From Acidobacteriota bacterium (GTDB taxonomy: Bacteria; Acidobacteriota; Thermoanaerobaculia; Thermoanaerobaculales; Thermoanaerobaculaceae): a stretch of 62,306 nucleotides of DNA. How positions within the stretch are numbered: the first letter of the stretch is position 1; each line of letters starts with the position of its first letter. Shown piece by piece: positions 676-62,306 of the stretch. Made by a program: the position numbers and the translations under genes. The stretch covers positions 1 through 62,306 of the forward strand of contig PMLC01000039.1 of the NCBI GenBank assembly GCA_003158745.1, read 5' to 3'. Below the pieces are notes generated by a model, which saw only the letters and a program-made list of their open reading frames with translations, ran no database searches and was not told the DNA's origin.

Positions 676-853
676 GTCGACAGCCTCCGCCCACCCTCCC
701 ACCCGGTTCACAGTTGACAGTTAACAGCTTCCACCCACCCTCCCACCCATTTGACAGTTGACAGTCCCCCACCCGCCCAAGAAACAAACCTGAGGAAGAG
801 GAGGCTGCGAGCTATACGTCTTTGACTGTCAACTGTCAACTGTCAACTGTTAA
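676..853. repeat. Heptad-arm inverted repeat A1 (long form)
   Basis: The left part carries units of the type TTGACAG/TTAACAG plus two C-rich spacers (CCACCCTCCCACCC). The right arm (824-853) is a run of ACTGTCA units complementary to the left arm. The end overlaps the TAA stop of rlmB, which is formed by GTTAACAG of the repeat. The same composite layout recurs at 62126-62306. The element fills most of the space between rlmB and the tRNA promoter. Confidence 0.85.
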
Positions 854-1584
854 CCCTTGGTGGGGAAACGACGGCGCCATTCCCACGCCAGCACTCCGGC
901 AGCTACCGACAGGTTGAGCGACTCCACCTCCCCGGAGATAGGGATCGCCAGGGTGCCGTCGAGCGCCTTCCGGGTCTTCGCACGCAGTCCGCCAGCTTCC
1001 GCGCCCAGGCACAGGACGAGTCGGTCCGGGAGATCGACGCGGTCGAGAGGCGTCCCCCCCGCCTCGGCACCGTACACCCAGAACCCGGCCTCCTTTGCCG
1101 CCAGCGCGAAATCGCCCAGCGCGCCAACATGGGCGATGCGGACCAACGACAGGCTACCGGCGGCGACCTTGGCGGCCGCCCCTCCGAGCGGTGGCGGATG
1201 CGGACCACCCACCACCACGCCGCCGAGACCAAACGCCGCGGCGGTTCGCACCACGGCCCCGAGATTGTGCCCGTCCTCGAGTCCGTCCAGGCCGATCAGA
1301 CAGACCTGCCCCTCGAGACTCAAGAGGGTTTCGGGCTCGGCGAGCGGCGCCGGCGCCAGGCGCGCCGCGAGACCGTTGTGCGCGTTTCCGGCGGCCGCGT
1401 CATCGAGCTTGCGCCTCGGCACCGAGTTGAACCTGACGCCGGCCGCACGGGCGGCGTCTAGCACCTGCCGCGCCCGTGGGCCACCGAGGCCGTCCGCGAT
1501 CCACACGACCTCGACGCGCGCCGCTTCGCGTTCGAGGACGGCCAGCACGGCGTGGAAGCCGACGACCCACTCAGGCTGGCTCAA
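850..1584 (-). CDS. rlmB: TrmH-family 23S rRNA 2'-O-ribose methyltransferase (RlmB-like)
   Basis: The 244-aa product is a SPOUT (TrmH) methyltransferase, which transfers a methyl group from SAM to a ribose 2'-OH, in RlmB of G2251 in 23S rRNA. All three TrmH motifs are visible: LEDGHNLGAVVRT near residue 100, LCLGAEAGGL near 190 and IPISGEVESLNLSVA near 215. The short N-terminal substrate-binding part (VVGFHAV) is also of RlmB type. The start is a TTG overlapping the last codons of ispDF by 14 nt, so translation is probably coupled. The TAA stop is shared with repeat element A1. RlmB is preferred over TrmH or RlmH because of length and the N-terminal domain. Confidence 0.88.
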   Translation of the reverse strand: MSQPEWVVGFHAVLAVLEREAARVEVVWIADGLGGPRARQVLDAARAAGVRFNSVPRRKLDDAAAGNAHNGLAARLAPAPLAEPETLLSLEGQVCLIGLDGLEDGHNLGAVVRTAAAFGLGGVVVGGPHPPPLGGAAAKVAAGSLSLVRIAHVGALGDFALAAKEAGFWVYGAEAGGTPLDRVDLPDRLVLCLGAEAGGLRAKTRKALDGTLAIPISGEVESLNLSVAAGVLAWEWRRRFPTKG

Positions 1585-2713
1585 GGGTCACCACCGCTAG
1601 CGCGGCGAGCCCTTCGCGCCGCCCGACGAATCCCATCCCCTCGCACGTCGTGGCCTTGACGTTCACATCGTCCGACGCGAGGCCCAGCAGTTCGGCGAGC
1701 CGCGCCCGCATCGCCGCGCGGTGCGGCGCGATCCTCGGAGCTTCCGCGAGCAGCGTCAGGTCGCACCCCGCGAGGCACCACCCCCGCTGGGAGGCGAGGG
1801 CGATGGCGTGGCGCACGAAAAGTTCGGACGGCGCATCGCGCCAACGCTCCTCGGAAGGAGGAAAGTGCTCGCCGATGTCGCCGCAGCCGCACGCGCCGAG
1901 GATCGCATCGGTCACGGCGTGAAGGGGGGCGTCCGCGTCGGAGTGCCCGGCCAGACCCATCTCACCGGGGAACCGGATCCCGCAAAGCCAGAGGGGACGC
2001 CCGGCAGCGAAGGCGTGCACGTCGAAGCCTTGCCCGACCCGCGTCCGCCTCGGGAAGATCCCCGCGACGAAGGCGAGGTCGTCGGGGTGCGTGACCTTCA
2101 CGTTCCGGCTGTCCCCATAGACCGCCACGACCGCGCCGCCCTGGCGCTCGACGAGCGCGGCCTCGTCGGTCCAGAACGTATCCCCCGCCGCCTCCCACGC
2201 GCTGCGGAGCAGACCGGCGCGGAACGCCTGGGGCGTGAGCGCGCGGGCCAGTCTGTCGCGTGGTACCGTCGTCTCCACCGTGCCATCCGGGCGCAAGCGC
2301 TTGACCGTGTCGACCACGGGCGTGACGAGAAGAGCCGCGCCGCCCTCGGCGGCTGCAGCCACGACGCGCATCACATCGTCCGGCGGAACGAACGGCCGCG
2401 CGCCGTCGTGGATGACCACGATCGTGTCGTCGGCCGCGTCGAGGGCCGCGAAACCGTTCCTCACGGAGTCCTGGCGGCGCTCCCCGCCGGCCGTGACCCT
2501 GATGGCAAGCTCTTCCCAGCGGGCCCGGACCTGCTCGACCTGGTCGCCCCGCACAACCAGCACCAGAGGCGCATCGGGAAACGGCTTGCGGAGGGCGGCC
2601 ACGGCGCGTTCCAGCACCGACCGCCCACACAGGAGGACCCCGAGTTTGTCCGTCCCGAAACGGGTCGAAGACCCGGCAGCGACGATGATGATGGCTACGT
2701 TGGTTTCCGGCAT
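1571..2713 (-). CDS. ispDF: Bifunctional IspD/IspF enzyme of the MEP isoprenoid pathway
   Basis: This 380-aa fusion joins 2-C-methyl-D-erythritol 4-phosphate cytidylyltransferase (IspD, residues 1-220) to 2-C-methyl-D-erythritol 2,4-cyclodiphosphate synthase (IspF, 223-380). The IspD part has AAGSSTRFG at 12-20 and IHDGARPF at 101-108. The IspF part has GQGFDVH at 227-233 with metal ligands D231 and H233, GHSDADAPLH at 256-265 and the C-terminal CEGMGFVGR. IspDF fusions are known in several phyla; here no IspE lies nearby. dxs, which feeds the same pathway, is in this window at 56140-58059. The gene follows frr after about 100 nt. Confidence 0.95.
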   Translation of the reverse strand: MPETNVAIIIVAAGSSTRFGTDKLGVLLCGRSVLERAVAALRKPFPDAPLVLVVRGDQVEQVRARWEELAIRVTAGGERRQDSVRNGFAALDAADDTIVVIHDGARPFVPPDDVMRVVAAAAEGGAALLVTPVVDTVKRLRPDGTVETTVPRDRLARALTPQAFRAGLLRSAWEAAGDTFWTDEAALVERQGGAVVAVYGDSRNVKVTHPDDLAFVAGIFPRRTRVGQGFDVHAFAAGRPLWLCGIRFPGEMGLAGHSDADAPLHAVTDAILGACGCGDIGEHFPPSEERWRDAPSELFVRHAIALASQRGWCLAGCDLTLLAEAPRIAPHRAAMRARLAELLGLASDDVNVKATTCEGMGFVGRREGLAALAVVTLEPA

Positions 2714-2810
2714 TGCCGTGCCGTGAGACCCCTCGCCGCGCTTCCGGGAGATCCTCCGCGCTGCCTTCGGCTGCGCTCAGGATGTGACCCGGTCCGCGGC
2801 ACGGGTGGGA

Positions 2811-3365
2811 TCACACCTCCAAAATCTCCTTCTCCTTCGCGCCGAGGACATCGCCGATGTGCTTGATGTGCTCGTCGGTGTGTTTTTGGATCTCTTCGAG
2901 CCCGCGGTGCAGGTCGTCCTCCGAGATCTTCTTGTCCTTCTCGAGCTTTTTCAGTTCCTCATTACCGTCGCGGCGGACGTTCCGCACGGCCGTCCGGGCC
3001 CGCTCCGCATACTCGTGGGCGACCTTGACGAGCTCCTTGCGCCGCTCCTGCGTCGGCGTCGGGACCGGAAGCTTGATGACCTTACCGTCGTTCATCGGGT
3101 TCAACCCTAGGTTGGCCTTCTGGATCGCGTGCTCGATCGCAGAGATGAGCGTCGGGTCCCACGGCTGGATCACGATCAGGGCGGGATCCGGCACTGAGAG
3201 GTTCGCGACCTGGTTGAGGGGCGTGGGCGTGCCGTAGTAGTCCACCCGCACCGAGTCCAGGATCCCGAGCGAGGCCCGCCCCGTGCGCACCGTCTTGAGT
3301 TCGTCCCTCAGCGCGTCCAGCGCCTTGTCCATATGAGCCTTCGTCGTCTTGACCGTCTCGCGCAT
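2811..3365 (-). CDS. frr: Ribosome recycling factor
   Basis: The product of 184 aa has the usual RRF length and hallmarks: RTGRASLGILDSV near residue 30, PTPLNQVANLSVPD near 50, and the helical C-terminus. RRF splits post-termination ribosomes with EF-G. I place the start at the ATG at 3365, five nt after the purine-rich site GAGGGAG; a GTG two codons upstream overlaps that site. It is the fourth member of the standard rpsB-tsf-pyrH-frr order, but separated from pyrH by repeat element A2. Confidence 0.96.
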   Translation of the reverse strand: MRETVKTTKAHMDKALDALRDELKTVRTGRASLGILDSVRVDYYGTPTPLNQVANLSVPDPALIVIQPWDPTLISAIEHAIQKANLGLNPMNDGKVIKLPVPTPTQERRKELVKVAHEYAERARTAVRNVRRDGNEELKKLEKDKKISEDDLHRGLEEIQKHTDEHIKHIGDVLGAKEKEILEV

Positions 3366-3450
3366 CGTCACTCCCTCTTACGGTCCCGTCGCCGCGGGGT
3401 CCGCCTTGAGATGCCAACGCGTTCCATTGTATCCGCTCAGGAGGAAGAAG

Positions 3451-3580
3451 TTGACAGTTGACAGTTCACAGTCGACAGTCAGAGGCACGAATCCGGCACC
3501 ACAACGACCGGTAGCGCATCGCGCTCGCAGGCTTTCTCTTGCTTCTGACTGTTGACTGTCGACTGTGAACTGTCAACTGT
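3451..3580. repeat. Heptad-arm inverted repeat A2
   Basis: The left arm (3451-3482) is four 7-nt units of the type TTGACAG. The right arm (3545-3580) is the complement, five units of the type ACTGTCA, separated by a loop of about 60 nt. The element lies inside the pyrH-frr operon and begins 4 nt after the pyrH stop codon. Confidence 0.9.
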
Positions 3581-3584
3581 CGCG

Positions 3585-4292
3585 CTACGAGACGGTGGAG
3601 CCGACGTCCACGCCCAACACCACACGCCTGATGTTGCCAGGCACACGGATGTTGAAGATCTTGATCGGGATCTTCGCGTTCTGGCAGAGCGAGACGGCAG
3701 CGGCGTCCATGATCTTCAGACTGTTCTCGAGCAGGTACTGGTAGCTCGCCTGCTTGAGCAACTTGGCGCCCGCGTCCCGAACCGGATCGGCGGTGTAGAG
3801 ACCGTCCACCTTGGTGCCCTTGAGGAGGGCGTCCGCGCGAATCTCGCTCGCCCGCAGCGCGGCCGCCGAGTCCGTCGTGAAGAACGGGTTGCCTGTGCCG
3901 GCCGCAAAGATCACGACGCGATTCTTCTCGAGATGGCGGATCGCCCGCCGACGGATGAACGGCTCGGCGACCTCCCGGATGTCGATGGCGGTGAGCACGC
4001 GGGTGAAGCAGGCGCGCCGTTCGAGGGCGTCCTGCAGGGCGAGGGCATTGATCACCGTCGCGAGCATCCCCATGTTGTCGCCGGTGACCCGGTCGAGCCC
4101 CTGCTCGGTGGCGGCAATCCCTCGGATGATGTTGCCGCCGCCAATCACGATCGCGACCTCGATGCCGAGGTCGCGCACGTCGGCGATCTCCGCTGCGAGG
4201 ACCGGGAGCACCTCGGGCGCGATCCCGAAAGGCTGATTGCCCATCAGGACCTCGCCCGAGAGCTTGAGGACGATGCGCCGGTAGGGGGTCAT
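3585..4292 (-). CDS. pyrH: Uridylate kinase (UMP kinase)
   Basis: This 235-aa amino-acid-kinase-fold protein phosphorylates UMP to UDP. LKLSGEVL at the N-terminus, VIGGGNIIRG near 45-55, GTGNPFFTTDSAA near 130 and the C-terminal IFNIRVPGNIRRVV match bacterial PyrH. The ATG at 4292 gives the standard N-terminus MTPYRRIVLKLSGE and lies 5 nt after the tsf stop, so translation is coupled. The stop is followed almost at once by repeat element A2. Confidence 0.96.
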   Translation of the reverse strand: MTPYRRIVLKLSGEVLMGNQPFGIAPEVLPVLAAEIADVRDLGIEVAIVIGGGNIIRGIAATEQGLDRVTGDNMGMLATVINALALQDALERRACFTRVLTAIDIREVAEPFIRRRAIRHLEKNRVVIFAAGTGNPFFTTDSAAALRASEIRADALLKGTKVDGLYTADPVRDAGAKLLKQASYQYLLENSLKIMDAAAVSLCQNAKIPIKIFNIRVPGNIRRVVLGVDVGSTVS

Positions 4293-4297
4293 CCCGC

Positions 4298-5158
4298 TCA
4301 CTTCTCGACCGCCGCAGCCCCCTCGCCGAGCTTGAAGCGGAGGAAGCCCTTCACGACCGCGCCTCCGCGCTCCGCCAGCACAGCAGAAACCTTCTTTGCG
4401 GGGTCCTTGACGAACGGCTGGTCCACGAGGCACACCTGCTCGTAGAACTTGGCCACCTTGCCGTCGGCGATCTTCTCGATCACCTGCTCCGGCTTGCCGG
4501 AAGCGGCGGCCTGCGCCTTGGCGATCTCGCGCTCCTCGTTGACGGCCTCGGCGGGCACCTCGTTCGAGGTCACCCATCGCGGCTCGGCGGCCGCGATTTG
4601 CATCGCCACGTCCTTGACGGTCTCATCGTCGGCCGCATCCGAAACCTCGACGATGACCCCGATCTTGCCGCCCATGTGGAGGTACGAACCGATCTTCATG
4701 CCGGGAGCCGCGGCCATGAAGCCAACGCGGGAGAGCAGGATGTTCTCGCCGATGGTGGCGATCTGGCTCCCTATCACATCGCCCACCGTGTGGAGCGGGT
4801 CGGCGGCGTAGCGCGTGGCCTTGACCTTCTCCACGTCCGAGATGCCGTCGGCCGCCACCTGGTCGGCGAGCGCCTGGGCGAACGCCTGGTACTGCTCCGT
4901 ACGGGCGACGAAGTCGGTTTCACAGTTGAGCTCGACCATGCCGGCGCGCCGGCCGTCCTCCGCGACAGCGATGGCCACGAGGCCGTCCTTTGCGGTGCGG
5001 CCGGCCTTCTTGGCGGCTGCGGACAGCCCCTTCTTGCGGAGGATCTTGATCGCCTCCTCCATGTCGCCGTTCGCCTCCTGCAGGGCCCGCTGGCAGTCCA
5101 TCATCCCAGCGCCCGTCTTCTCGCGCAGCTCCTTCACCATCCCAGCAGAAATTGCCAT
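4298..5158 (-). CDS. tsf: Elongation factor Ts
   Basis: EF-Ts exchanges GDP for GTP on EF-Tu. The 286-aa product begins MAISAGMVKELREKTG and carries the signature TGAGMMDCQRAL, followed by the long core domains and the C-terminal LVDQPFVKDPAK. The ATG at 5158 is chosen because GGAGG lies six nt upstream; a start six codons earlier lacks this. It follows rpsB in the conserved order, with repeat element F in the gap. Confidence 0.97.
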   Translation of the reverse strand: MAISAGMVKELREKTGAGMMDCQRALQEANGDMEEAIKILRKKGLSAAAKKAGRTAKDGLVAIAVAEDGRRAGMVELNCETDFVARTEQYQAFAQALADQVAADGISDVEKVKATRYAADPLHTVGDVIGSQIATIGENILLSRVGFMAAAPGMKIGSYLHMGGKIGVIVEVSDAADDETVKDVAMQIAAAEPRWVTSNEVPAEAVNEEREIAKAQAAASGKPEQVIEKIADGKVAKFYEQVCLVDQPFVKDPAKKVSAVLAERGGAVVKGFLRFKLGEGAAAVEK

Positions 5159-5206
5159 CTCGATCCTCCATGACAACGGCCAGGAAGCGCACCCCCCTGG
5201 CCGTGA

Positions 5207-5312
5207 AAAACCGTGGTCCGTGATCAGTGGCCCGTGATCAGAAACGGCCGTTGTCGCTATCGACCCGCTGCCTACTCTCTCAACCTTGCCACGGTTCCAC
5301 GGGCCACGGTGC
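5207..5312. repeat. Heptad-arm inverted repeat F
   Basis: The left arm (5211-5243) reads as 7-nt units GTGGTCC, GTGATCA, GTGGCCC, GTGATCA. The right arm (5288-5312) has CCACGGT, CCACGGG, CCACGGT units. The two arms pair through ACCGTGGnCCGTG. The element fills the rpsB-tsf intergenic region. It differs in sequence from the other classes but shares the same architecture. Confidence 0.65.
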
Positions 5313-5314
5313 TC

Positions 5315-6190
5315 TCAGCGCTTCTCGTACTGCTCGGTCTCCTCGTCGTACTCCTCGAACGTCTCCTCCAGGGAAGGCAGTGCCGCCTCCTCGGTTGCCT
5401 CGGGTGCCGCCTCGGCTACCGCCTCGGCCGGCTGCTGCGGCTGCGCCTCCGTGACCTCGACCGGCGCGCTGGCACGAACCAGTACAGCCTCGGGTTCCGT
5501 CCGGCCCTCGACCATCGCCAGCCCCTCGAGCACCGAGTCGGCAATCCGCGAGGTGAATAGCTTGATGGCGCGGATAGCGTCGTCGTTGCCCGGGATGGGG
5601 TAGTCCACCACGTCCGGATCGCAGTTGGTGTCCACCACGGCAACGACCGGAATGCCGAGCCTGTTCGCCTCGTGCACGGCGTTGTGCTCGTGGTTGGTGT
5701 CGATCACGTACAGCGCGTCCGGCAGCGACTCCATGTCGCGAATGCCGCCGAGGTTCTTCTCCATCTTGGCGCGCTCGCGCTCGAGGTGGACGCGCTCTTT
5801 CTTCGTGATCTGAGCATCCGTGTTGGCGAGCTGGCGCTCGATGTCCTTGAACCGCTCCACGGAGCGGCGTAGGGTCACGAAGTTCGTGAGCGTTCCGCCC
5901 AACCAGCGGTTCGCTACGTAGAACATCCCGCTGCGGGCGGCCTCTTCCTTCACCACGTCCTGCGCTTGCCGCTTCGTTCCAACGAACAGGATTGTGCCGC
6001 CCGTGACCACGAGGTCACGGACGAAGTTGGAGGCTTCTTCGAAGAGCTGCAGCGTCCTCTGGAGGTCAACGATGTAGATCCCGTTGCGCTTTCCGAAGAT
6101 GTAGGGTCGCATCTTCGGGTTCCAGCGCCGGGTCTGGTGACCGAAGTGGACGCCAGCCTCGAGCAGCTCTTTCATTGAGATGGAAGCCAA
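5315..6190 (-). CDS. rpsB: 30S ribosomal protein S2 with acidic C-terminal extension
   Basis: The 291-aa product matches S2 throughout ([54 protein letters not shown]). It is about 50 residues longer than E. coli S2 because of a Pro/Ala/Glu-rich acidic tail (residues about 238-291). Initiation is probably at TTG: an AAAGGAGA site lies five nt upstream and the resulting [13 protein letters not shown] aligns with the start of the family, whereas the first ATG is five codons inside. It opens the rpsB-tsf-pyrH-frr block and follows rpsI after only 35 nt. Confidence 0.97.
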
Positions 6191-6225
6191 GCGAGTCTCC
6201 TTTCAGGCTCTCCTTCAGGCTTTTC

Positions 6226-6618
6226 CTAACGCTTCGAGAACTGGAACCGACGACGAGCCTTGGGCTGGCCGTACTTCTTGCGCTCAACCTCGCGTGCGTC
6301 GCGCGTGAGGAAGCCGGCGCTCTTCAGCTTCGGCCGCAGCTCGGGGTTGAACTCGAGGAGGGCGCGCGAAAGGCCGTGCCGGATCGCTCCGGCCTGGCCG
6401 GTCATGCCGCCGCCCGCCACGTTGATCACGATGTCGAACTTCTCGTTCGTCTCGGTGATCGCGAGCGGCTGACGGATGACCATCTTGAGCACGCGGTTGG
6501 GGAAGTAGCTCTCGAAGTCGCGGTTGTTGACCTTGATGACGCCGGTGCCCGGACGCAGGTAGACGCGAGCCACCGCGTTCTTCCGCCGGCCTGTCCCGTA
6601 ATACTGGATGCTCGCCAC
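6226..6618 (-). CDS. rpsI: 30S ribosomal protein S9
   Basis: The product is 130 aa, the family's usual length, with [13 protein letters not shown] at the N-terminus, [14 protein letters not shown] in the middle and the basic C-terminal tail ending [11 protein letters not shown] that reaches the ribosomal P site. The GTG start at 6618 is preceded by AAGGAGA at good spacing. It is cotranscribed downstream of rplM, as in most bacteria. Confidence 0.97.
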
Positions 6619-6629
6619 GGATGCTCTCC

Positions 6630-7064
6630 TTACCCTTCCGCCTTCACGACCTGCGGCTGCTGCGCCTGGTGGGGGTGTTCCGCTCCGGGGTAGACCTTGA
6701 GCTTCCTGAGAAGCTGGCGGCCCAACCGGTTCTTCGGCAGCATCCCCCAAACCGCAAAGCGCACCAGACGCTCGGGCGACCTATCGCGCAGCTCGCGGGC
6801 GGTCTGCTGGTGCAGGTGCCCCGGATCGCCGGAGTGGCGGTAGTACTTCTTGTCGTCCCACTTGTTGCCGGTCAGTTTGACCTTGTCTGCGTTGACCACG
6901 ATCACGAAATCGCCCGTGTCGAGGCCCGGCGTGAAAATCGCCTTGTGCTTGCCGCGCAGAAGCGTCGCCACCTTCGTGGACAGGCGCCCGAGCACGACAT
7001 CGGCCGCGTCGATCACGTACCAGTCGTGACGGATTTCACCCTGTTTCGGCACGTACGTCTTCAT
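6630..7064 (-). CDS. rplM: 50S ribosomal protein L13
   Basis: The 144-aa product begins [20 protein letters not shown] and contains [25 protein letters not shown] and [11 protein letters not shown], all L13 hallmarks. The start is taken at 7064 by alignment with the family; an adjacent upstream ATG (7067) is also possible, and a GGAG site serves either. It is the first gene of the long minus-strand translation block, behind a strong promoter. Confidence 0.97.
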
Positions 7065-7128
7065 CATCGGCTCTCCACTCGCCCGTCGAAACCCACGCGA
7101 GGCAAACCCCTCCTCGCAAGGGACGGAG

Positions 7129-11661: not shown

Positions 11662-11758
11662 AAAGAGGGTAGACGGCCGAAGGTAGAAGGGAGAGGAAAG
11701 GCAAGGCTCGCCCCCTTTCTCCGTCTTCCGTCTCCCCTCTTCCTTCTCCCTTCTTCCC
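11662..11758. repeat. Heptad-arm inverted repeat E2
   Basis: Left arm 11662-11704 reads AAGAGGG, TAGACGG, CCGAAGG, TAGAAGG, GAGAGGA. Right arm 11716-11758 reads TCTCCGT, CTTCCGT, CTCCCCT, CTTCCTT, CTCCCTT, CTTCCCT. The arms are complementary over about 35 nt. This copy lies between divergent genes, which argues against a pure terminator role. Confidence 0.85.
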
Positions 11759-11778
11759 TGGTCCGCTATCGGCGGCGC
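11759..11778. repeat. Fragment of the 130-nt interspersed repeat
   Basis: Twenty bases match the right end of the 130-nt repeat found at 18141-18270 and 46737-46866 with one change (CGGCGGCGC for CGGTGGCGC). It directly abuts repeat element E2, as if the rest had been lost or replaced. Confidence 0.5.
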
Positions 11779-12950: not shown

Positions 12951-13090
12951 ACGAGTTAAGAGTTGAGAGTGAAGAGTCAAGAGCTAACTACAAGAAACTG
13001 CAACCTCAGGCTTGCGTCCGGGCGGACTGCGTCGGCCCCGTGTCTTTCAACTCTTCACTCTTCACTCTTCACTCTTAACTCATCACTTCT
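12951..13090. repeat. Heptad-arm inverted repeat B1
   Basis: Left arm 12952-12989 reads GAGTTAA, GAGTTGA, GAGTGAA, GAGTCAA, GAGCTAA. Right arm 13045-13086 reads CTCTTCA three times, then CTCTTAA and CTCATCA. A loop of about 55 nt separates them. It lies between convergent genes (phosphoesterase and thioredoxin-like). Confidence 0.9.
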
Positions 13091-13709: not shown

Positions 13710-13845
13710 AGTTCAGAAGTAAGATAAGAGTTGAGAGTTAAGAGTTGGAATCACCAATAGGACTCGCGCTCACGTACCCCTGTTTTCTTGCCCCGGTGGC
13801 TCGTTTCTCAACTCCTCACTCTTCACTCTGAACTCTTAACTTCTA
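13710..13845. repeat. Heptad-arm inverted repeat B2
   Basis: Left arm 13710-13748 contains ATAAGAG, TTGAGAG, TTAAGAG units. Right arm 13804-13844 contains ACTCCTC, ACTCTTC, ACTCTGA, ACTCTTA units. It is closely related to B1 and is followed at once by a half element of class D. Confidence 0.85.
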
Positions 13846-13847: not shown

Positions 13848-13885
13848 GCGCTCCTCTGCGCCTCAGCCCCTCTGCTCCCTTGCTT
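13848..13885. repeat. Class D half element within the 3' end of the PP2C gene
   Basis: The plus strand reads as 8-nt units GCTCCTCT, GCGCCTCA, GCCCCTCT, GCTCCCTT. The minus-strand phosphatase gene runs into it, so its last residues (REQRG) and its TGA stop are encoded by repeat units. No complementary purine arm of this class is present. Confidence 0.6.
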
Positions 13886-15515
13886 CGTCTCCCCCGAGGT
13901 ACCGGACCACGAGCAACGTCACATCGTCCTCGGCCTCGCGCCCTGCGCGATGCGCCGCGGCCGCTTCCAGGAGCGCATCCGCCAGCTCCTCGGCGGTCGA
14001 GCCCGAAAAGCCCTCAAGGGTCTTCCGTACGCCCTCGATGCCGAACTCCTCGTCCGTCGGCGAGAACGACTCGGAGATCCCGTCGCTGTAGAACACGATC
14101 GTGTCCCCCGGCGCCATCTGGACCGTCTCCACGCCCCAGGTCGCGGCCGGGAGCAAGCCGAGAATCGGTCCCCGGGGCGTCACCAGTTGCACGCTCCGGT
14201 CGCGGCGCAGAACCGCGAGCGGGCAGTGCCCGCCGTTGGTCAGCGCCAGCGTGCCGTCCTGCGAGAGCACGCCCATCCCGAGGGTCACGAACTTGTTGCC
14301 CGGGTTGTGCTCGATCAGGCTCCGGTTGAGCGCGGGCAGCACGAGCTCGATCGGTTGCCCGAGCTCGTGCAGGAGGCCAAGCATGCCCTGAACCATCGCC
14401 ATGATGAGCGCGGCCGGCACGCCCTTGCCCGAAACGTCTCCGAGCGCCACCGCGAGCGATCCGTCCTGGCGGACCGCCCCCTGGTAGAGATCGCCCCCCA
14501 CACTGCGCGCGGGGTGCGAAACGGCGAACACCTCCGCGTACGGCACCTGCGGCAGGGCGGGCAGGAGCGCGCTTTGGATGTTCCTGGCGAGTGCCATCTC
14601 GTGGTCGGTCTTGGCTTTTTCGCGCGCCTCCTTGTACAGCTTGGCGCTGTCCACGGCGACGGCCGCATCTGCCGCCAGCGACTCGAGCACCGCCAGGTCC
14701 TCGCGGCCGAAAGGCTTACCGGCCGTGGCGCGCTCCACCAGGATCCCGCCGATGACCTCGACCGTCGCGATGAACGAAGCCTCCTCGGCGCGGCCGAACG
14801 GCCTCCTGGCGACAAGGAGCGGCGCGGCGACCGCCAGCGCGGCGCCGCGGGCGACCATCGTCGTGGACGGCGACACCTCCATGCCCACGTGCACCGCTCT
14901 GCGCTCGGACAGGGCCCGCTCGAACAGGGAGCTGCGTTGCCCCCACGCGGTCTCGGCCACGTCGCGGGGGTAGGACGCAACCGTGCGCCGCTCGCCGTTC
15001 TCGACCAGGATCAGGCAGCCGCGGTCCGCCCGCAGCAGCCTCACCGCCGCCTGGAGCACGATGTGCACGACGTCATCAAGCACCGTCGCCGCATTGAGCG
15101 CGCGGGCAACCTCCAGCAACACCTGAAGTTGCCGGACACCTCCCCCTTCCCCGCTGCTCTGCTCGGCCACCATCTCCAGCGCGCTCGATGACTCGTCGGC
15201 CTGGACGACGTACTCGGTCCTCGGCCCGATCCGCAGGACATCGCCTGGCTTGACCACGGCACGCTGGACCTTCTCGTCATTGACGAAGGTGCCTCCGGAA
15301 GATCCGAGGTCCTCGACCACGAACTCGTGTCCGTCCCAGCTCACCTTGGCGTGCCGGCGCGACACCGTGGGCTCGGCGATGACGATGTCGCACGCGGGGT
15401 CCCGGCCCATGCGCATCACCGACTGCTGCACTCGCACACGCGGCACCAGGGCCCCGGGATCCCGGGGCACCAGGGTTGGCGCCGAGCCCCACTCGCTTCG
15501 CTCGCCTTGGGACAT
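13863..15515 (-). CDS. FHA-GAF-PP2C serine/threonine phosphatase (SpoIIE/RsbU type)
   Basis: The 550-aa protein combines an FHA phosphothreonine-binding domain (about 25-105; MGRDPACDIVI, SRRHA), a GAF domain (about 130-295) and a SpoIIE-type PP2C phosphatase (about 315-545). Metal-binding aspartates are visible in GGDLY, GDVSGKG, SDGISE and DDVTLLV. Such proteins dephosphorylate anti-sigma antagonists or other phosphoproteins in response to a ligand of the GAF domain. No anti-sigma partner lies nearby. The ATG has no ribosome binding site; TAGACT ends six nt upstream, so the mRNA is probably leaderless. The C-terminal codons and stop lie in a repeat half element. Confidence 0.93.
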   Translation of the reverse strand: MSQGERSEWGSAPTLVPRDPGALVPRVRVQQSVMRMGRDPACDIVIAEPTVSRRHAKVSWDGHEFVVEDLGSSGGTFVNDEKVQRAVVKPGDVLRIGPRTEYVVQADESSSALEMVAEQSSGEGGGVRQLQVLLEVARALNAATVLDDVVHIVLQAAVRLLRADRGCLILVENGERRTVASYPRDVAETAWGQRSSLFERALSERRAVHVGMEVSPSTTMVARGAALAVAAPLLVARRPFGRAEEASFIATVEVIGGILVERATAGKPFGREDLAVLESLAADAAVAVDSAKLYKEAREKAKTDHEMALARNIQSALLPALPQVPYAEVFAVSHPARSVGGDLYQGAVRQDGSLAVALGDVSGKGVPAALIMAMVQGMLGLLHELGQPIELVLPALNRSLIEHNPGNKFVTLGMGVLSQDGTLALTNGGHCPLAVLRRDRSVQLVTPRGPILGLLPAATWGVETVQMAPGDTIVFYSDGISESFSPTDEEFGIEGVRKTLEGFSGSTAEELADALLEAAAAHRAGREAEDDVTLLVVRYLGGDEAREQRG

Positions 15516-16507: not shown

Positions 16508-16640
16508 CGTGGAGGCTCCTTTCTTTTGCCCCGCCGGCTCGGATGGGTCGCTCGCTCCGGCGTGTCTCTCTGGCTGCGCTCGATGCGCAGCCAGAGAGAC
16601 CCCTCCGAGCGCCCGCGGGGCAAGAAAGAAAGCCTCCACG
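16508..16640. repeat. Long nested palindrome between convergent genes
   Basis: A perfect 16-bp stem (16564-16579 with 16585-16600, loop TCGAT) sits inside an outer imperfect stem. In the outer stem GTGGAGGCTCC...TTGCCCCGC on the left pairs with GCGGGGCAAG...GCCTCCAC on the right. About 20 nt remain unpaired on the left side. The element lies between the convergent phosphoesterase and VOC genes and could stop transcription from both sides. It is unrelated in sequence and period to the heptad-arm elements. Confidence 0.8.
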
Positions 16641-17970: not shown

Positions 17971-18090
17971 GAAAGGGGGAAAAGGTAAAAGGTCAAACGT
18001 TAAAGGGAAGACAGGGAATCCAAGTCCGGGGTCCTACCGCGTCGTCGTCTTCCGTTTCACCTTTTCCCTTTCACCTTTTCCGTCTTTCCG
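17971..18090. repeat. Heptad-arm inverted repeat C1
   Basis: Left arm 17971-18015 reads GAAAGGG, GGAAAAG, GTAAAAG, GTCAAAC, GTTAAAG, GGAAGAC. Right arm 18046-18090 reads GTCTTCC, GTTTCAC, CTTTTCC, CTTTCAC, CTTTTCC, GTCTTTC. The arms are complementary with a loop of about 30 nt. Confidence 0.9.
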
Positions 18091-18140
18091 TCACGCCCGC
18101 GTGCCGTAGGTGGAGCAAAGCAGGGCCTCGCGGCACGGCG

Positions 18141-18270
18141 TGTAGCCGCGCCGCCGAGAGTGGGCCAGATGCAAGGAAGGCGAGCGGCGAGCAGCGGAGC
18201 CTAGCCGGAGGCTAGGTGAGCATGCGAGCCACGAGCCTGACGCAGCAGATGGTCCGCTATCGGTGGCGCC
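18141..18270. repeat. 130-nt interspersed repeat, copy 1
   Basis: This 130-nt block matches 46737-46866 without any gap and with 17 differences by my count (about 87 per cent identity). It ends 2 nt before the stop codon of the minus-strand response regulator. The internal stem CCTAGCC/GGCTAGG with loop GGA is retained in the other copy with compensatory changes. The flanks TGGGCCAGATGCAAGG and CAGATGGTCCGC are the most conserved parts. Confidence 0.85.
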
Positions 18271-20453: not shown

Positions 20454-20500
20454 GAGAGCTGAGAGGGAAAAGGTCAAAGGGAAAACGAAAGACAGGGGGA
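20454..20500. repeat. Half element of class C
   Basis: Only the purine arm is present: GAGCTGA, GAGGGAA, AAGGTCA, AAGGGAA, AACGAAA, GACAGGG. It resembles the left arm of C1 including the AAGACAGGG end. No complementary arm follows before the next gene, so it looks like a decayed copy. Confidence 0.6.
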
Positions 20501-36714: not shown

Positions 36715-36812
36715 GGCGAGCGGAGGAGCTGAGGGGCTGAGGAGCAGAGGGGAAAAGGCAAAGGGGTGCCTGACTTGTCTTTGGCTCCTCTGCTCCCCTG
36801 CTCCTCTGCCCA
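36715..36812. repeat. Heptad-arm-type inverted repeat D1 (8-nt units)
   Basis: Left arm 36719-36755 reads GGAGCTGA, GGGGCTGA, GGAGCAGA, GGGG. Right arm 36782-36811 reads GCTCCTCT, GCTCCCCT, GCTCCTCT, GCCC. The period is 8 rather than 7. It lies between acpS and the CheY-like gene. Confidence 0.9.
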
Positions 36813-36823
36813 TCAGCTGTCGC

Positions 36824-41460: not shown

Positions 41461-41590
41461 GCATGGGAGCAGAGGAGCAGAGGGGCAGAGGGGCGGAAAC
41501 GACCGCTCCTGCTCCTACCTGCTCCCATGCCGCGATCCTCTTCCGCGTCTTTGCTCCTCCGCTCCTCCGCTCCTCTGCTCCTCTGCTCGC
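41461..41590. repeat. Heptad-arm-type inverted repeat D2 (8-nt units)
   Basis: Left arm 41465-41498 reads GGAGCAGA, GGAGCAGA, GGGGCAGA, GGGGCGG. Right arm 41552-41590 reads GCTCCTCC twice then GCTCCTCT twice. It separates lgt from rluD inside one operon. Confidence 0.9.
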
Positions 41591-46622: not shown

Positions 46623-46736
46623 CCGCCCTCGCCAAACCCCACATCTCATCGCGCCGGACCGCTGAAGAGACCGGCGTCCGGGGTCACGGACCCGGGATCC
46701 ATAAACGCAAGGACGGCAGGGCACCGGAAGCATGCG

Positions 46737-46866
46737 TGCAGCCGCGCTGCCGAGAGTGGGCCAGATGCAAGGAAGATAAGCGGCGAGCGCCGCAGCATAG
46801 TCGGAGGCTATGTGAGGACGCGAGGCGCGAGCCTGACGCCCCAGATGGTCCGCTATCGGTGGCGCC
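46737..46866. repeat. 130-nt interspersed repeat, copy 2
   Basis: Aligned without gaps to 18141-18270 (17 differences). It abuts the stop of the minus-strand SDR, just as copy 1 abuts the response regulator. The stem here is CATAGTC/GGCTATG: one base pair is changed on both sides (C-G to A-T) and another becomes G-T, so pairing is preserved. Confidence 0.85.
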
Positions 46867-52669: not shown

Positions 52670-52678
52670 GGACCCGGC

Positions 52679-56084: not shown

Positions 56085-56139
56085 CGCATCGCCTCCAGGA
56101 GCACAAAGGAACTGCAGGGCGCATTCGGATGTGGGCGCA

Positions 56140-58059: not shown

Positions 58060-58068
58060 CGTCCCCCT

Positions 58069-58962
58069 CTATCGGTCGCGGCGTGCCACGTAGTTCACGA
58101 GCGCGCCGAGCACCCCTAGCCCACGTTCGAGCCGTTGCGCCTCGTCCGCCAGCGAACTCGCCAGCTCATCGCGCTTGCGTCGCGCTGCCTCGAGGCCATA
58201 CACCGCCGGGTACGTGAGCTTGCCTGCGGCAGCGTCCTTCCCTGGGCTCTTTCCGAGAGATGCCGCAGAGCCCGTCACGTCGAGAATATCATCGGCGATC
58301 TGAAACAGGAGGCCCAGGCGCCGCCCGAAGCCGGCGAACTCGGCCCTGCTCGCGCCCTCCACGCCCTCCAGCAGCGCCCCAAGCTCCACCGCCACGCCGA
58401 GCAGCGCTCCTGTCTTTGCTCGATGTATCCTCTCCAGCCGCACACCGTCAGGTGTCGCCCCGGTCGCCTCGAGGTCCTCCACCTGACCGCCGACCATGCC
58501 GCGGGAGCCGATCGCCTCGGCCACGAGCCGGCACGCATCGGCGCGGCGAGCGGCGAACCCATCGCCCTCGGGGAAACGGCCGAGCACGGCAAAGGCCTCG
58601 GTGAGGAGAGCATCGCCGGCCAGAATCGCGAGCGCCTCGTCGAACGCCACGTGCACCGTCGCGCGGCCGCGCCGCAGCGTATCGTCGTCGAGCGCTGGCA
58701 GGTCGTCATGGATCAGCGAGTAGGTGTGCACCATCTCAAGAGCGCACGCCGCCTCCAGGATCAACTCGGCATCGCCCCCCGCCGCACGGCACGCGGCCCG
58801 CGCCAGGACCGGCCTCACCCGCTTCCCGCCGCCGAATACCGCGTAGCGCATCGCCTGGTGGAGGCGCGCCGGCCACGCATCGGCAGGGGCGAGCAGCCTG
58901 TTGAGCGCGCCGTCGACGCGCTCCCGCTCCTCCGTCAGGAATGCGGCGAGATCCACACTCAC
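58069..58962 (-). CDS. ispA: Polyprenyl (farnesyl/geranylgeranyl) diphosphate synthase
   Basis: The 297-aa trans-prenyltransferase has both aspartate-rich motifs: HDDLPALDDDTLRRG (first, extended, FPP-synthase type) and FQIADDILD (second), plus GGKRVRPVL near 50. It elongates dimethylallyl diphosphate with isopentenyl diphosphate to C15 or C20. The GTG start overlaps the xseB stop (GTGA). dxs follows after 9 nt. Confidence 0.94.
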   Translation of the reverse strand: MSVDLAAFLTEERERVDGALNRLLAPADAWPARLHQAMRYAVFGGGKRVRPVLARAACRAAGGDAELILEAACALEMVHTYSLIHDDLPALDDDTLRRGRATVHVAFDEALAILAGDALLTEAFAVLGRFPEGDGFAARRADACRLVAEAIGSRGMVGGQVEDLEATGATPDGVRLERIHRAKTGALLGVAVELGALLEGVEGASRAEFAGFGRRLGLLFQIADDILDVTGSAASLGKSPGKDAAAGKLTYPAVYGLEAARRKRDELASSLADEAQRLERGLGVLGALVNYVARRDR

Positions 58963-59195
58963 TCCACTTCGGGCGCGAACGGGGCGGTCTTCGGCTCCTC
59001 GCCCTCAGCCGCCTCAGCCAGGAGCTGCTCCACGCGCCGCTCGACGCCCTCCAACTGGGCGCGGCAGCGCTTGGCGAGCTTCACTCCGCGTTCGAACAGC
59101 TTCAAGGCCTCCTCGAGGCCAACGCTTTCGTCCTCGAGCTTTGCAACGACCTCCTCGAGCTCCTCAAGTGCCTGCTCGAACGATTCCTTGGTCAT
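58959..59195 (-). CDS. xseB: Exodeoxyribonuclease VII small subunit
   Basis: The 78-aa helical protein has the XseB pattern SFEQALEELEEVVAKLEDESVGLEEALKLFERGVKL. It binds several copies per XseA. GGAGGG lies upstream of the ATG. Repeat A4 separates it from xseA, and it overlaps ispA by 4 nt. Confidence 0.94.
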   Translation of the reverse strand: MTKESFEQALEELEEVVAKLEDESVGLEEALKLFERGVKLAKRCRAQLEGVERRVEQLLAEAAEGEEPKTAPFAPEVE

Positions 59196-59212
59196 TTGCC
59201 CTCCAAGAGGCG

Positions 59213-59318
59213 AGTTGACAGTTCACAGTTAACAATTGACAGCAAAGACATCACCGAACACCAGGAACGGCCCAGGAGCTGACTCCGCGGACTGTCGACT
59301 GTCAACTGTCAACTGTCT
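59213..59318. repeat. Heptad-arm inverted repeat A4
   Basis: Left arm 59213-59241 (AGTTGAC, AGTTCAC, AGTTAAC, AATTGAC) pairs with right arm 59289-59318 (GACTGTC units). It lies in the xseA-xseB junction, and the last codons (TVDS) and the TGA stop of xseA are encoded by its right arm. Confidence 0.9.
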
Positions 59319-60678
59319 TCTCCTCCTCGTCGAACAGCGAGCCCTGGCTGCCGTTGATGCGCCCCAGGACCAGCGACCGGAGATGCCCAGTCGCGAACGT
59401 CGTCACGACGCGCTCGCCGGCGTTCACCCCGGCGGCGTCGGTCAGCGGTTTCGGGTCTCCCTCTCGGGTCGTGACCGAGTAGCCGCGCTCCAGAACCCGA
59501 CGCGGCGACAGCGCGCCGAGCGCCCGTTCGCCGCCGGCCAGCTCGAGCCGGCGTCGGGCGACGAGCGAGCGCAGCCGCTCGCCGGCCACCGCGAGACGCG
59601 CGGTGATGAGTTCGCGGCGGCGCGGGGCCCCGAACCGGACCGGCCAGCGGTACAGGTGCGCCGTTGCCGCCTCCGTGCGACGGTGGCGCCGTGCGACGAG
59701 AGAGCGCAGGAGCTGCGGCAGCGCTTCGAGGCGCTGGAGCAGCTGATCCAGCTCCTTGAGCCGCAGCGGCAGCCGCGCCAGGCCGCGCGCCCCCTCGAGC
59801 CCGCGGAGGCGCAACTGGGCGTGCTCGAGTTTCCGGGTGAACGCGCTGGCCACGCCGTCCCGCGCGGTTTCGGTCCGCCGCTGCTGCCGCTCGAGCGCGG
59901 CGACGACCAGTTCGCCGGCCTGGGTCGGGGTCGCGGCGCGCACGTCGGCGACGAAGTCTGCGATGGTGAAATCCACTTCGTGGCCCACACCGGAGATCAC
60001 CGGCACCGGGGAGGCGGCGATGGCGCGCGCCACAATCTCCTCGTTGAAGGCCCAGAGGTCCTCGAGGGAGCCGCCGCCGCGAACCACGAGGACGACGTCC
60101 ACCAGTCCGGACCGGCCCAGGTAGCGCACGGCCCGTGCGATCTCGCCTTCGGAGCCCTTTCCCTGCACGCGGACGGCGTAGAGGAGCACCGACAGACGCT
60201 CCCAGCGGGAAAGCACCTTCAGCACGTCGCGCACCGCCGCACCGCTCGCCGAGGTCACGAGGCCGAGCCTCTGCGGCAGCGCCGGTAGCGGGCGCTTGCG
60301 CTCCGCCGCGAACAGCCCCTCGGTTTCGAGCTTGGCTTTCATCTGCTCGAACGCGAGCTGCAACTCGCCGATCCCCTCCGGCTGCACCTCGGCGACGATG
60401 AGCTGCAGTGAGCCGCGCTGGGGGTATACCTCGATCGTGCCGCGCAGCAGCACCGCCTGGCCGTCCGCCAGCTTGAACCTCAACCTGTCGGCGCGCGCGG
60501 CCCACATCGCGCAGGAGAGCTGGCCCTCGCCGTCCTTGACCTGGAAGTAGCGATGCCCCGATGCGGCGACCTTGACGCCGGAGAGCTCCCCCCGCACCCA
60601 GACCTCGCCGAAGCCGCCCGCGAGCGTGGCGTTGATCTCGCCGATCAGCTCGCCCACTCCGTAGGTGCGCGCGCTCAC
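59302..60678 (-). CDS. xseA: Exodeoxyribonuclease VII large subunit
   Basis: The 458-aa nuclease has the N-terminal OB fold (VRGELSGVKVAASGHRYFQVKD), the central region with GLVTSASGAAVRDVL and VVRGGGSLEDLWAFNEE, VGHEVDFTIADFVAD and the long coiled coil. The C-terminal RGYS segment is RVLERGYSVTTREG. The GTG at 60678 follows GGAGG and overlaps the upstream ligase-like gene (GTGA). The final four residues TVDS and the stop come from repeat element A4, so the C-terminus is slightly extended. Confidence 0.95.
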   Translation of the reverse strand: MSARTYGVGELIGEINATLAGGFGEVWVRGELSGVKVAASGHRYFQVKDGEGQLSCAMWAARADRLRFKLADGQAVLLRGTIEVYPQRGSLQLIVAEVQPEGIGELQLAFEQMKAKLETEGLFAAERKRPLPALPQRLGLVTSASGAAVRDVLKVLSRWERLSVLLYAVRVQGKGSEGEIARAVRYLGRSGLVDVVLVVRGGGSLEDLWAFNEEIVARAIAASPVPVISGVGHEVDFTIADFVADVRAATPTQAGELVVAALERQQRRTETARDGVASAFTRKLEHAQLRLRGLEGARGLARLPLRLKELDQLLQRLEALPQLLRSLVARRHRRTEAATAHLYRWPVRFGAPRRRELITARLAVAGERLRSLVARRRLELAGGERALGALSPRRVLERGYSVTTREGDPKPLTDAAGVNAGERVVTTFATGHLRSLVLGRINGSQGSLFDEEEKTVDS

Positions 60679-61844
60679 GTGGTCGCCTCCTCGACCTGAC
60701 CGACGCCCGCACCCATCAGGACAAGCGTCGTGTACTGCACGTTGGCAAACCAGAAGTTGTACTCGAAAAGGCCGGCGATCGAGATCGCCAGCACCGACGC
60801 GAGCGAGGCCGCGACGGCAGCCCGCCGCCTCTCCGATAGCCGCGGGAGGCCCCTCCACGTCACCGTGAAGAACGCACCCATGAGCCAAAGGTAGGCAGCC
60901 AGCGCCGGCAGTCCTCGTTCGGCGGCGATCTGTACGATGTTGTTGTGAAGGTGCGGCACGCTCCAGCGCGGCGCGTCATCGCGACGGTAGAGCGGGTAGA
61001 GCCGATCCACCATGTCGAGCCCGACACCCGTGATCGGGTGGTCACGGATCATCTGGACGCCGGAGATCGCCATGCAGACCCGGTCGTAGTTGGCGGACTG
61101 CCGCAGGTCGAAGATAGAGACGACCCTGTCGAGCACCGAGCGCGGGAAGACGAGCCATAGCGCCAGTGCGAGGACCGGATAGAGGAGAAGAAGGCGACGG
61201 CGCCACACGGCGGCAAGCAGCAGGAGCGCGGCGGTGAGCCCCACCCAGGCGTTGCGCGTGTACGACAGAAGAAGCGCTACCGGGCCGAGCAGCGCCGGCG
61301 GCAGCAGCAACCACACGCGCCGCGCCGGGTTGAGCAGCAGCTCGGCGATCGCTACTACCGCGCCGAGCAACACGCAGCCGGCGAACAGCATGTAGTGGGA
61401 GAGCGGTCCCTGGATCCGATGCTCGAGATCGTTGGCGCCCTGCGCGTACTGGATGATCCCCCAGACCGCCAGGATCGTCGTGGCCACCGCCAGGGCCGCA
61501 ACCAGGCGTTTCCACCAGACGTGGTCGATGAGTGCGGCCGAAAGTGGTACCAGGAGAAGCACGGCGAGCCGCGGCGTCTTGTCAAGACTCTCGAGCGGAT
61601 CCAGCGAGAACAGCACCGAGATCAGCGATGCGGCGGCGAAGAGCACCAGCGGCAAAACGAGAACCCGGGCGAACGGCCGCCCGCGCAGCTCACCCAGGCG
61701 CCACGCCCTCCAGGCCGCGACCGCGGCAACGACGAGCAGAGGGTTGGCGATCCCGAGCCGCGAAGACGTGGCCGCGGCCGCCACGATCGAGCCGGCGGCG
61801 AGCGCGCTGACGCGCGCGGAGCGGTTCGGGGCTCGCTCCTCCAA
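60675..61844 (-). CDS. O-antigen ligase/polymerase-like membrane protein (Wzy_C)
   Basis: The 389-aa protein has about ten hydrophobic helices and the periplasmic-loop motif HLHNNIVQIAAERGLP near 300, typical of the O-antigen ligase WaaL and Wzy_C families. It may join surface glycans to a lipid or protein. There are no glycan-synthesis neighbours apart from the GT genes at 49562 and 55299. The start is probably TTG at 61844, 6 nt after the upstream stop. Confidence 0.83.
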   Translation of the reverse strand: MEERAPNRSARVSALAAGSIVAAAATSSRLGIANPLLVVAAVAAWRAWRLGELRGRPFARVLVLPLVLFAAASLISVLFSLDPLESLDKTPRLAVLLLVPLSAALIDHVWWKRLVAALAVATTILAVWGIIQYAQGANDLEHRIQGPLSHYMLFAGCVLLGAVVAIAELLLNPARRVWLLLPPALLGPVALLLSYTRNAWVGLTAALLLLAAVWRRRLLLLYPVLALALWLVFPRSVLDRVVSIFDLRQSANYDRVCMAISGVQMIRDHPITGVGLDMVDRLYPLYRRDDAPRWSVPHLHNNIVQIAAERGLPALAAYLWLMGAFFTVTWRGLPRLSERRRAAVAASLASVLAISIAGLFEYNFWFANVQYTTLVLMGAGVGQVEEATT

Positions 61845-61850
61845 CGGGTC

Positions 61851-62093
61851 TCACCCCGCGGCGGGGAGTGCCTCGTCGATCAGCATGACGGGGATGTCGC
61901 TGACGATCGGATACACGCGGCGGCAGTTGGCGCACCGGAGCCCCTCTCGGACCTCCGGAACCTCGTCGCGGAACTTCTCCCGGTACCGTTCCACCAGCAT
62001 TGCGCACTCCTCCGGCGGCAGCGGGACCAGTTCCACGTCCGCCTTGCACGCCGGACAGACGAGAATCTCCAACAACTGAGGATCAACCGGCAT
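61851..62093 (-). CDS. Trm112-like zinc-finger protein
   Basis: The 80-aa product starts MPVDPQLLEILVCPACKADVELV and has two CxxC pairs (CPAC, CANC), the second in LRCANCRRVYPIVSDIPVML. This is the Trm112/YcaR family. In eukaryotes and archaea Trm112 activates methyltransferases; the bacterial role is poorly known. The ATG at 62093 follows GGGGAGG. Confidence 0.88.
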   Translation of the reverse strand: MPVDPQLLEILVCPACKADVELVPLPPEECAMLVERYREKFRDEVPEVREGLRCANCRRVYPIVSDIPVMLIDEALPAAG

Positions 62094-62125
62094 GTCGGCC
62101 TCCCCAGGCATGCTACCACTGGTAC

Positions 62126-62306
62126 GGCAGTCGACAGCCTCCGCCCACCCACCCGCCCAGTTGACAGTCGACAGTCCCTCTGAAGACAGTTGACAGCTTC
62201 CGCCTAACCGCCCGCCCAGTTGACAGTCGACAGTCCCCCACCCATCCAAGAGACGATGGAAGGGAAGGAGCTGTTGGTTTCTGACTGTCAACTGTTGACT
62301 GTCAAC
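62126..62306. repeat. Heptad-arm inverted repeat A5 (long form, reaches window end)
   Basis: Two tandem composite units of about 57 nt (CGACAGCCTCCGCC... and TTGACAGCTTCCGCC..., each followed by AGTTGACAGTCGACAGTC) form the left side. A right arm of ACTGTCA units begins near 62279 and runs off the window. The layout and C-rich spacers match A1 at 676-853. Confidence 0.85.

Follow-up and report, generated by a model that had tools for sequence, protein, structure and literature searches.

Dispersed inverted repeats with 7- and 8-nucleotide tandem-unit arms of several sequence classes in a Thermoanaerobaculum-related Acidobacteriota genome

Introduction

Arrays of short tandem units have been noted in several bacterial groups, and here we compare with them a family of inverted repeats, the arms of which consist of tandem units of 7 or 8 nucleotides (nt), dispersed over a 62,306-nt contig (PMLC01000039.1, the whole of which is hereafter the window) of an uncultured Acidobacteriota bacterium related to Thermoanaerobaculum. 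In cyanobacteria, the short tandemly repeated repetitive (STRR) heptamers are tandem 7-mers located between genes and are not known to have paired arms. Xanthomonas carries degenerate GGGAATC heptamers, with 70 and 75 convergent pairs that lie near the upstream open reading frame (ORF) and are rare between divergent ORFs (Rehm et al., 2015, PMC4692102). In Geobacter metallireducens, sites of 3-5 tandem repeats of the classes GTTGCTYN, TCTCCGTS[Y] and MTYCTGA mostly form opposite-strand pairs at variable distance, and have been read, as a proposal only, as possible IHF/HU sites (PMC2700814). REPINs, inverted pairs of repetitive extragenic palindromic (REP) sequences, have a less conserved spacer, are extragenic and fall into several sequence groups, their REP arms being palindromic with a conserved 16-mer and compensatory change (PMC3116915). 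In turn, the TAACTGA repeats of Beggiatoaceae are direct repeats situated mostly just upstream of start codons, with one inverted case (PMC4679880).

The elements described here are built as two inverted arrays, mostly of 3-5 units of 7 or 8 nt and usually with the G-rich strand directed inwards, around a loop, and their unit consensus is ACAGTNN in class A, AGAGTNN in class B, AAAGGNN in class C and GGAGCAGA in class D. Like the Xanthomonas heptamers, they are degenerate arrays with a mode of four units (30/55 class A arms of this genome, counted as exact arrays of at least three units, with three units in 16/55 and five in 9/55) and form convergent inverted pairs: a reverse array lies within 260 nt downstream of 32/36 forward class A arrays and of 8/11 class B arrays, and an outward class A arrangement within 100 nt was found in one case. 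Unlike the single G-tract class of Xanthomonas, which was studied as a quadruplex (PMC4692102), many classes occur per genome here, and A and B, the classes examined by eye for this feature, have no GGG in their units; the present analysis also asks whether the two arms are independent and whether orthologous gaps differ in class. With the Geobacter sites our elements share tandem 7-/8-mers on opposite strands, the variable distance and several classes per genome, whereas arm matching, unit alphabet and orthologous replacement, tested here, are not part of the available Geobacter account (PMC2700814). They resemble REPINs as extragenic inverted doublets with a variable spacer, but their arms are tandem units and compensation was not seen in classes A and B. 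With the Beggiatoaceae repeats they have in common dispersed 7-mer arrays and a sporadic distribution, though not the direct orientation and the proximity to start codons.

The preliminary description of the window knew of no precedent for the paired-arm family, which is partly incorrect in view of the convergent degenerate heptamer pairs of Xanthomonas (PMC4692102) and the paired 7-/8-mer sites of G. metallireducens (PMC2700814). The format is already known piecemeal, and the multi-dialect family is the new part: searches of open-access literature, with subscription papers mostly not covered, turned up no description of dialects of several classes at orthologous gaps, of independent arms or of the shared ACAGTYV code.

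Materials and methods

The genome that contains the window, labelled G000, comprises 3.74 Mb in 163 contigs, of which the window is contig C7. Its nearest rpsB among the labelled genomes is that of the Acidobacteria metagenome-assembled genome (MAG) clean3599 (86%), followed at 76% by a bacterial MAG and at 74% by one of Thermoanaerobaculum; among genomes of the same genus rpsB identity is 86-88%. Clean3599 is probably the genome labelled G008, both matches having identical coordinates. Elements were detected with an ungapped inverted-repeat scan combined with autocorrelation of the arms, dinucleotide shuffles served as the control, and nested or overlapping repeat rows were counted individually. 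Besides the window, we scanned 20 further G000 stretches (329 kb) selected for carrying the class A pattern and 20 other stretches (277 kb) from contigs without a match to it, the latter set being for this reason biased against class A. For the genome-wide counts of class A and B patterns the reversed-pattern control is an unfair null, because some reversed patterns themselves match tandem arrays (545 matches in G100). Genes were called with a simple codon-position caller written for this analysis rather than a standard program. Rfam at gathering thresholds returned four tRNAs only in the window.

Periodic inverted repeats in the window and the genome

We found 50 inverted repeats in the window, 17 of them with a periodic arm, and in 12 of these 17 the period lies at lag 7, 8 or 14 (in the other five, at lag 3 or 9); all 12 coincide with places listed in the preliminary description. 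In eight dinucleotide shuffles of the window, summed, 5 repeats had lag 7 and 3 had lag 8, and lag 14 did not occur. Of the 54 inverted repeats in the class-A-selected stretches, 37 have lag 7 and 4 have lag 8, whereas one shuffle gave 5 repeats, none of them periodic. The 277-kb set yielded 33, of which 8 have lag 7 and 5 have lag 8 (one of these five, a GC hairpin with a 4-nt loop, is discounted), while two shuffles of this set gave 18 with a single repeat at each of the two lags. An excess of lag-7/8 inverted repeats over shuffled sequence is therefore present in the window and in both sets of stretches, and periodic paired-arm inverted repeats are a confirmed observation. A joint scan of 668 kb recovered 64 periodic elements, 54 with a pitch of 7 and 10 with a pitch of 8.

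Sixteen elements had been proposed in the window. Twelve pass the periodic inverted-repeat test, and a thirteenth, at 5207, is a decayed copy, weak in the window (score 12.4 against a maximum of 12.6 in 200 shuffles) but with a clear lag-7 repeat as its counterpart in G004 and clean3599. The other three do not have paired periodic arms: 9442 was rejected as a 10-bp inverted repeat inside the shuffle range and with no periodicity, and for 13848 (periodicity 0.57, lag 8) and 20454 (0.59, lag 7) no complementary arm above chance was found within 260 nt on either side.

That one layout carries several unrelated unit sequences, as the preliminary description had it, is borne out by sorting. Roughly grouped by motif, 70 repeats fall into classes A (35), B (12), D (9), E (5), C (4), G (4, of which 3 are not elements) and H (1). 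Class H (GTTCGAAG, pitch 8) is concentric around a class B element at L124:5888-6066, and by eye also encloses class C elements at two gaps of the related genome G005. Loops are mostly unrelated, a similar loop being found for 16/62. Miniature inverted-repeat transposable elements would have a conserved interior and target-site duplications; the loop counts bear on the former, and the relatives are too distant to reveal the latter. In the 5' arm G exceeds C in 110/132 periodic repeats over 12 genomes, with just 1/4 in G155. A purine-rich 5' arm was rejected as a universal rule, holding for 58/64 elements in G000 but 15/20 in G152 and 0/3 in G004. We also dropped the idea that a stop codon in each unit accounts for the pitch not being a multiple of three, because many units carry no stop codon (by eye).

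Many class A elements hold CCCACCC modules between short ACAG arrays. Such ACAG-array/CCCACCC composites are seen at 672-785 and 62126-62254, recur widely in the genome and have G runs on the opposite strand. As a separate observation, at L139:13411-13603 a class A element is tandemly duplicated, loop and 3' arm being identical and the 5' arms differing mostly at the variable positions.

Independence of the arms and constraint on the units

Selection for pairing, or the copying of one arm into the other, should make arms match their own partners better than foreign arms, which is not so in classes A and B of G000, the two classes covered by an arm test free of cutting bias. In class A (32 elements) the mean own-partner match is 18.44 against 18.80 (sd 0.34) for arms of different elements (p = 0.87), and for class B, with 10 elements, the two values are 20.10 and 19.76 (p = 0.29). 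The variable dinucleotides agree within an element in 46/119 cases in class A (48.7 expected) and 13/32 in class B (14.5 expected), and we saw no compensatory changes between the arms in these two classes. The statement that the 3' arm is the reverse complement of the 5' arm thus holds for classes A and B through the common unit core, but their variable positions match no better than chance. Arm-to-arm copying by quasi-palindrome correction is likewise not supported in either class. At the first variable position of 21 class A elements between tandem genes no sense-strand G-U asymmetry was seen (5' arm T49 C25; 3' arm T48 C17 G1).

The two variable positions of class A are themselves constrained. 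Exact arrays use 6 of the 16 possible NN pairs, namely TG, CG, TC, CA, TA and CC, in 158/158 units of G000, 48/48 of G152 and 32/32 of G155 (together 238/238, from exact-core arrays of at least three units in the stretches analysed, final unit omitted), and these are three distant genomes, G152 and G155 representing other families of the phylum. When one core mismatch and the last units are included, 14/263 G000 class A pairs lie outside the set, and ACAGT followed by other pairs (GA, AA, AG) occurs in other genomes.

Neighbouring class A units of G000 are identical less often than expected, in 23/103 cases against 30.1 with shuffling within the arm (p = 0.006) or 31.0 with pooled units (p = 0.03), and units two apart are identical in 20/48 cases against 14.3 (p = 0.02). 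For G000 class B we obtained 8/41 against 9.3 (within-arm, p = 0.25) or 12.3 (pooled, p = 0.06), and values near chance were found for class A of G152 (4/32 against 5.2) and class B of G317 (11/16 against 10.6). G155 class A shows a non-significant excess (7/22 against 4.0, p = 0.09), and class B arrays of G104 are homogeneous, with 17/17 adjacent pairs identical. Slippage was accordingly rejected as the maker of G000 class A, where adjacent identity is depleted rather than enriched, although the G155 excess and the homogeneous G104 arrays suggest that it may act in some genomes. The proposal that structure or a copying mechanism, and not sequence, is what is selected is not supported: the unmatched A and B arms, the under-identical class A neighbours and the tight constraint on class A sequence point to sequence recognition.

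Position relative to genes

Before placing the 70 repeats among the called genes we removed three by hand (L126:3480, L136:17322 and L169:7927, plain GC or coding-region repeats). Placement covered 67 elements, most of which derive from the class-A-selected stretches: 37 lie between tandem, 16 between convergent and 7 between divergent genes, with 6 at stretch edges and 1 inside an ORF, in agreement with the earlier remark that all three kinds of gap are used. The distance to a stop codon is at most 50 nt in 58/69 cases, including 12 overlaps with a called gene end, and that to a start at most 50 nt in 21/51. In 15/51 the start-side distance is no more than 25 nt, which leaves little space for a promoter downstream of the element. 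Occupied gaps of at least 60 nt number 6/15 tandem, 1/3 convergent and 1/5 divergent in the window, and 8/70, 1/15 and 1/21, respectively, in the 277-kb set. An enrichment in convergent gaps was rejected, since the 16/67 of the placed set, which includes the class-A-selected stretches, is set against 1/15 gaps in the 277-kb set.

Intrinsic terminators were also rejected: there is no U-tract, and a T-run of at least 4 follows within the next 15 nt at just 4/61 sense-oriented ends. Together with the short start-side distances, this upholds the earlier view that terminator function alone does not suffice.

Orthologous gaps and distribution

Gene order around rpsB is conserved within the genus, and the same gaps could be compared between genomes (class names at orthologous gaps were assigned by eye, the automated scan calling only part of them). 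The tsf/rpsB gap holds GTGGTCC arms in the window, G004 and clean3599 and, by eye, CGGAGCC-like repeats in G003, G005, G006 and G010; no element was found in this gap in G001, G007, G009, G011, G012 and G013. At the g11801/g13127 gap, again by eye, class B is present in the window, class E in G002 and G006, a class E-like repeat in G004 and class C inside H in G005, while no element is seen in G001 and G003 has no gap. The frr/pyrH gap carries class A or relatives in several genomes and nothing of the kind in others. The element-free divergent gap g13863/g15592 measures 159-160 nt in 6/7 genomes compared. Elements are thus not fixed at orthologous loci, as ordinary terminators might have been; the gaps differ in class or carry none.

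Between G004 and clean3599 the arms of the tsf/rpsB element show 0/64 differences, as opposed to 8/50 in the loop (p = 0.001) and 8/69 in the 5' flank, so that at this one site arms are conserved over the loop. Separately, a GC hairpin (ACGGCCAGG...CCTGGCCGT) lies at 5176-5204 between rpsB and tsf, and by eye similar ones occupy this gap in other genera of the family.

Among 396 Acidobacteriota genomes, 16 have the class A pattern and 19 the strict class B pattern, with none in the rest. Few genomes have many overlapping matches (class B, 243 in G104 and 156 in G317; class A, 102 in G152), and within the genus the three-unit class A pattern matches 62 times in G000 and 0-5 times in each of eight others. 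Further dialects with the same layout are TAGTCGT (7) and AATCGGGT-like (8) in G152, and AAGTTGA (7) and GGACTTGA (8) in G317. A survey of 1.35 Mb from diverse bacteria (101 loci) yielded inverted repeats of lag 7 at three loci: in clean3599, and at single loci of MAGs labelled Methylomirabilis and Desulfobacca.

PF01797, a Y1 transposase family wider than the REP-associated tyrosine transposases (RAYT), has 5 matches in G000 (two of them adjoining on contig C26), 8 in G104, 2 in G155, 1 in G317 and 0 in G152, so a RAYT gene does not accompany the elements in every genome that bears them. The one match examined, a gene that reads as RAYT-like from its sequence, is located at L124:6194-7180, and 127 nt beyond it lies a class H/B element; as the gene is flanked on both sides by a different repeat type (GGTACC), we do not file the elements as REPINs. 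The GGTACC repeats are possibly a separate REP family. REPs reportedly carry a GTAG or CGTC tag.

Individual elements and other repeats of the window

Class A elements of the window are the periodic inverted repeat at 705-855 (arms 705-727 and 833-855), ahead of which extra ACAG units and CCCACCC modules occupy 672-704; 3453-3581, between the pyrH and frr orthologs, with arms (3453-3481 and 3553-3581) that happen to be identical; 26673-26829, with a called stop 12 nt before and the next called start 15 nt after it; 59217-59317, with a 3' array that extends across the called end of the minus-strand gene at 59302; and 62219-62306 at the window end, with ACAG units and CCCACCC modules from 62126. 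Class B is represented at 12953-13081, between convergent genes, and as a periodic inverted repeat at 13721-13842, and class C at 17971-18088, where GAAGAC/GTCTTC stands next to the loop. The two class D elements (period 8) lie at 36727-36818, with loop-adjoining units that are class C-like, and at 41467-41588, and the class E (GAAGGTA-like) element at 11666-11759. These eleven, together with the class G repeat at 32220-32446, are the twelve that pass the periodic inverted-repeat test. The partly decayed class F (GTGGTCC) element at 5208-5314, directly downstream of rpsB (minus strand), is intact in G004 and clean3599, and the class G (CGGAGCC) inverted repeat at 32220-32446 falls within the called ORF 31399-32886. 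Lone arrays, for which a partner arm was not found, are class C-like at 20454-20498 (plus strand) and class D-like with period 8 at 13848-13892 (minus strand).

Repeats of other kinds are present as well. A 133-nt dispersed repeat occurs at 18138-18270 and 46734-46866 (87% identical), and its GGTCCGCTATCGG end recurs, by eye, directly after 11759. At 16564-16600 there is a perfect, non-periodic 16-bp inverted repeat with a 5-nt loop.

Discussion

The explanation that we favour, tentatively and with not quite even confidence, is that these are dispersed non-coding elements of a REP/REPIN-like kind, the arms of which are recognised by sequence by a putative trans-acting factor. Such a protein or enzyme would read the arrays unit by unit, and recognition would hold the unit core constant and let two positions vary within a limited alphabet. 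Within the short stretch that follows a gene end, elements would be gained, lost or switched in class, and long imperfect hairpins can form in transcripts that run through them. Sequence-recognised arms agree with the constant cores and their limited alphabet, with inverted pairing as a rule, with the independence of the two arms and with the turnover seen at gene ends; the factor, the mobility of the elements and any effect on mRNA are inferred.

Several observations speak against this explanation. The class B alphabet is broader than that of class A, and several classes in one genome would require several recognising proteins or one flexible protein. PF01797 has no match in array-rich G152, nor is any candidate protein tied to the arrays. 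Among arms as cut by the finder, the match to the own partner exceeds that to other arms in class B (12 elements), in class D (9) and, with G152 and G155 taken together, in class A (13; p = 0.03), and the TAGTC arms of G152 tend the same way (4; p = 0.08); this is expected from the way the arms are cut, but in class D it may be signal. Compared with G004, the window copy at tsf/rpsB has 4/49 differences and a 15-nt loss in the arms, next to 28/50 in the loop, and the frr/pyrH arms have diverged in G001 and G007, tsf/rpsB being the one site at which arm conservation was shown. Moreover, neither an insertion event nor a target duplication or an intermediate came to light, the genus relatives, at 86-88% rpsB identity, being too distant to show one.

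It is possible, though we hold it doubtful, that the elements are RNA hairpins at gene ends, serving as bidirectional terminators or barriers to 3' exonucleases and selected for structure, with the unit sequence incidental. They do adjoin stop codons, and G prevails over C in the 5' arm. Folded as RNA, each of eight strands taken from six elements does better than its shuffled versions (z -2.8 to -7.3), one folded stretch, 26664-26808, ending too early to show arm pairing. Yet the A and B arms are unmatched beyond their class, the sense strand has no G-U asymmetry, and no U-tract follows. The classes are genome-wide and not private to single loci, convergent gaps are not enriched in the 277-kb set, and rpsB/tsf already has its separate GC hairpin, conserved as judged by eye.

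We regard it as distinctly unlikely that the arrays, without being mobile, are bound as double-stranded DNA by a protein of the nucleoid or partition type that has a 7-8 bp pitch (IHF/HU, as proposed for Geobacter, or a ribbon-helix-helix protein on heptads). The strict class A core, its limited alphabet and the symmetry relative to transcription, with no sense-strand bias, would agree with such sites, and the binding of heptad repeats by a ribbon-helix-helix protein is known. Omega heptads, for instance, are 7 bp long and occur in direct and inverted orientation. Against these points stand the many unrelated classes in one genome, the presence or absence of elements at orthologous gaps, the location at gene ends and the lack of a candidate protein tied to the arrays.

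A mutational by-product of replication, through polymerase slippage or arm-to-arm copying, is improbable. Slippage was proposed earlier for bacterial heptamers (PMC4692102), and the G104 class B arrays and the G155 excess are in its favour; for G000 it is already disfavoured by the depleted adjacent identity of class A, G152 and G317 are near chance, class A and B arms are not matched, and dozens of loci use one unit code. True REPINs moved by a RAYT are highly improbable, for the inverted doublets with variable spacer, the PF01797 matches of G000 and the RAYT-like gene near a class H/B element are offset by array-rich G152 without a match, by the different repeat flanking that gene and by the compensatory changes, common in REPINs (PMC3116915), that were not seen here in classes A and B.

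Beyond sequence-recognised elements in this one genome, a broader and rather unlikely conjecture is that the format itself (a 7-8-nt pitch, about four units, an inverted pair, usually G-rich inwards, at gene ends) would be one multi-lineage system in which the unit is a fast-changing dialect. A putative family of modular or oligomeric proteins with a fixed 7-8 nt step might read and spread the arrays, their specificity being recoded by lineage and whole genomes switching dialect at the same gene boundaries.

Bacterial heptamer arrays have so far been noted as single-group curiosities with differing explanations, such as quadruplexes, IHF sites and slippage. The present data bring several of them together under a single layout that has many dialects, in which a unit code is reused in distant genomes, class A and B arms do not co-vary as a stem and class A units are unlike fresh slippage products. 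An old oddity is thereby turned into a testable question, namely which protein, if any, reads the 7-8 nt step.

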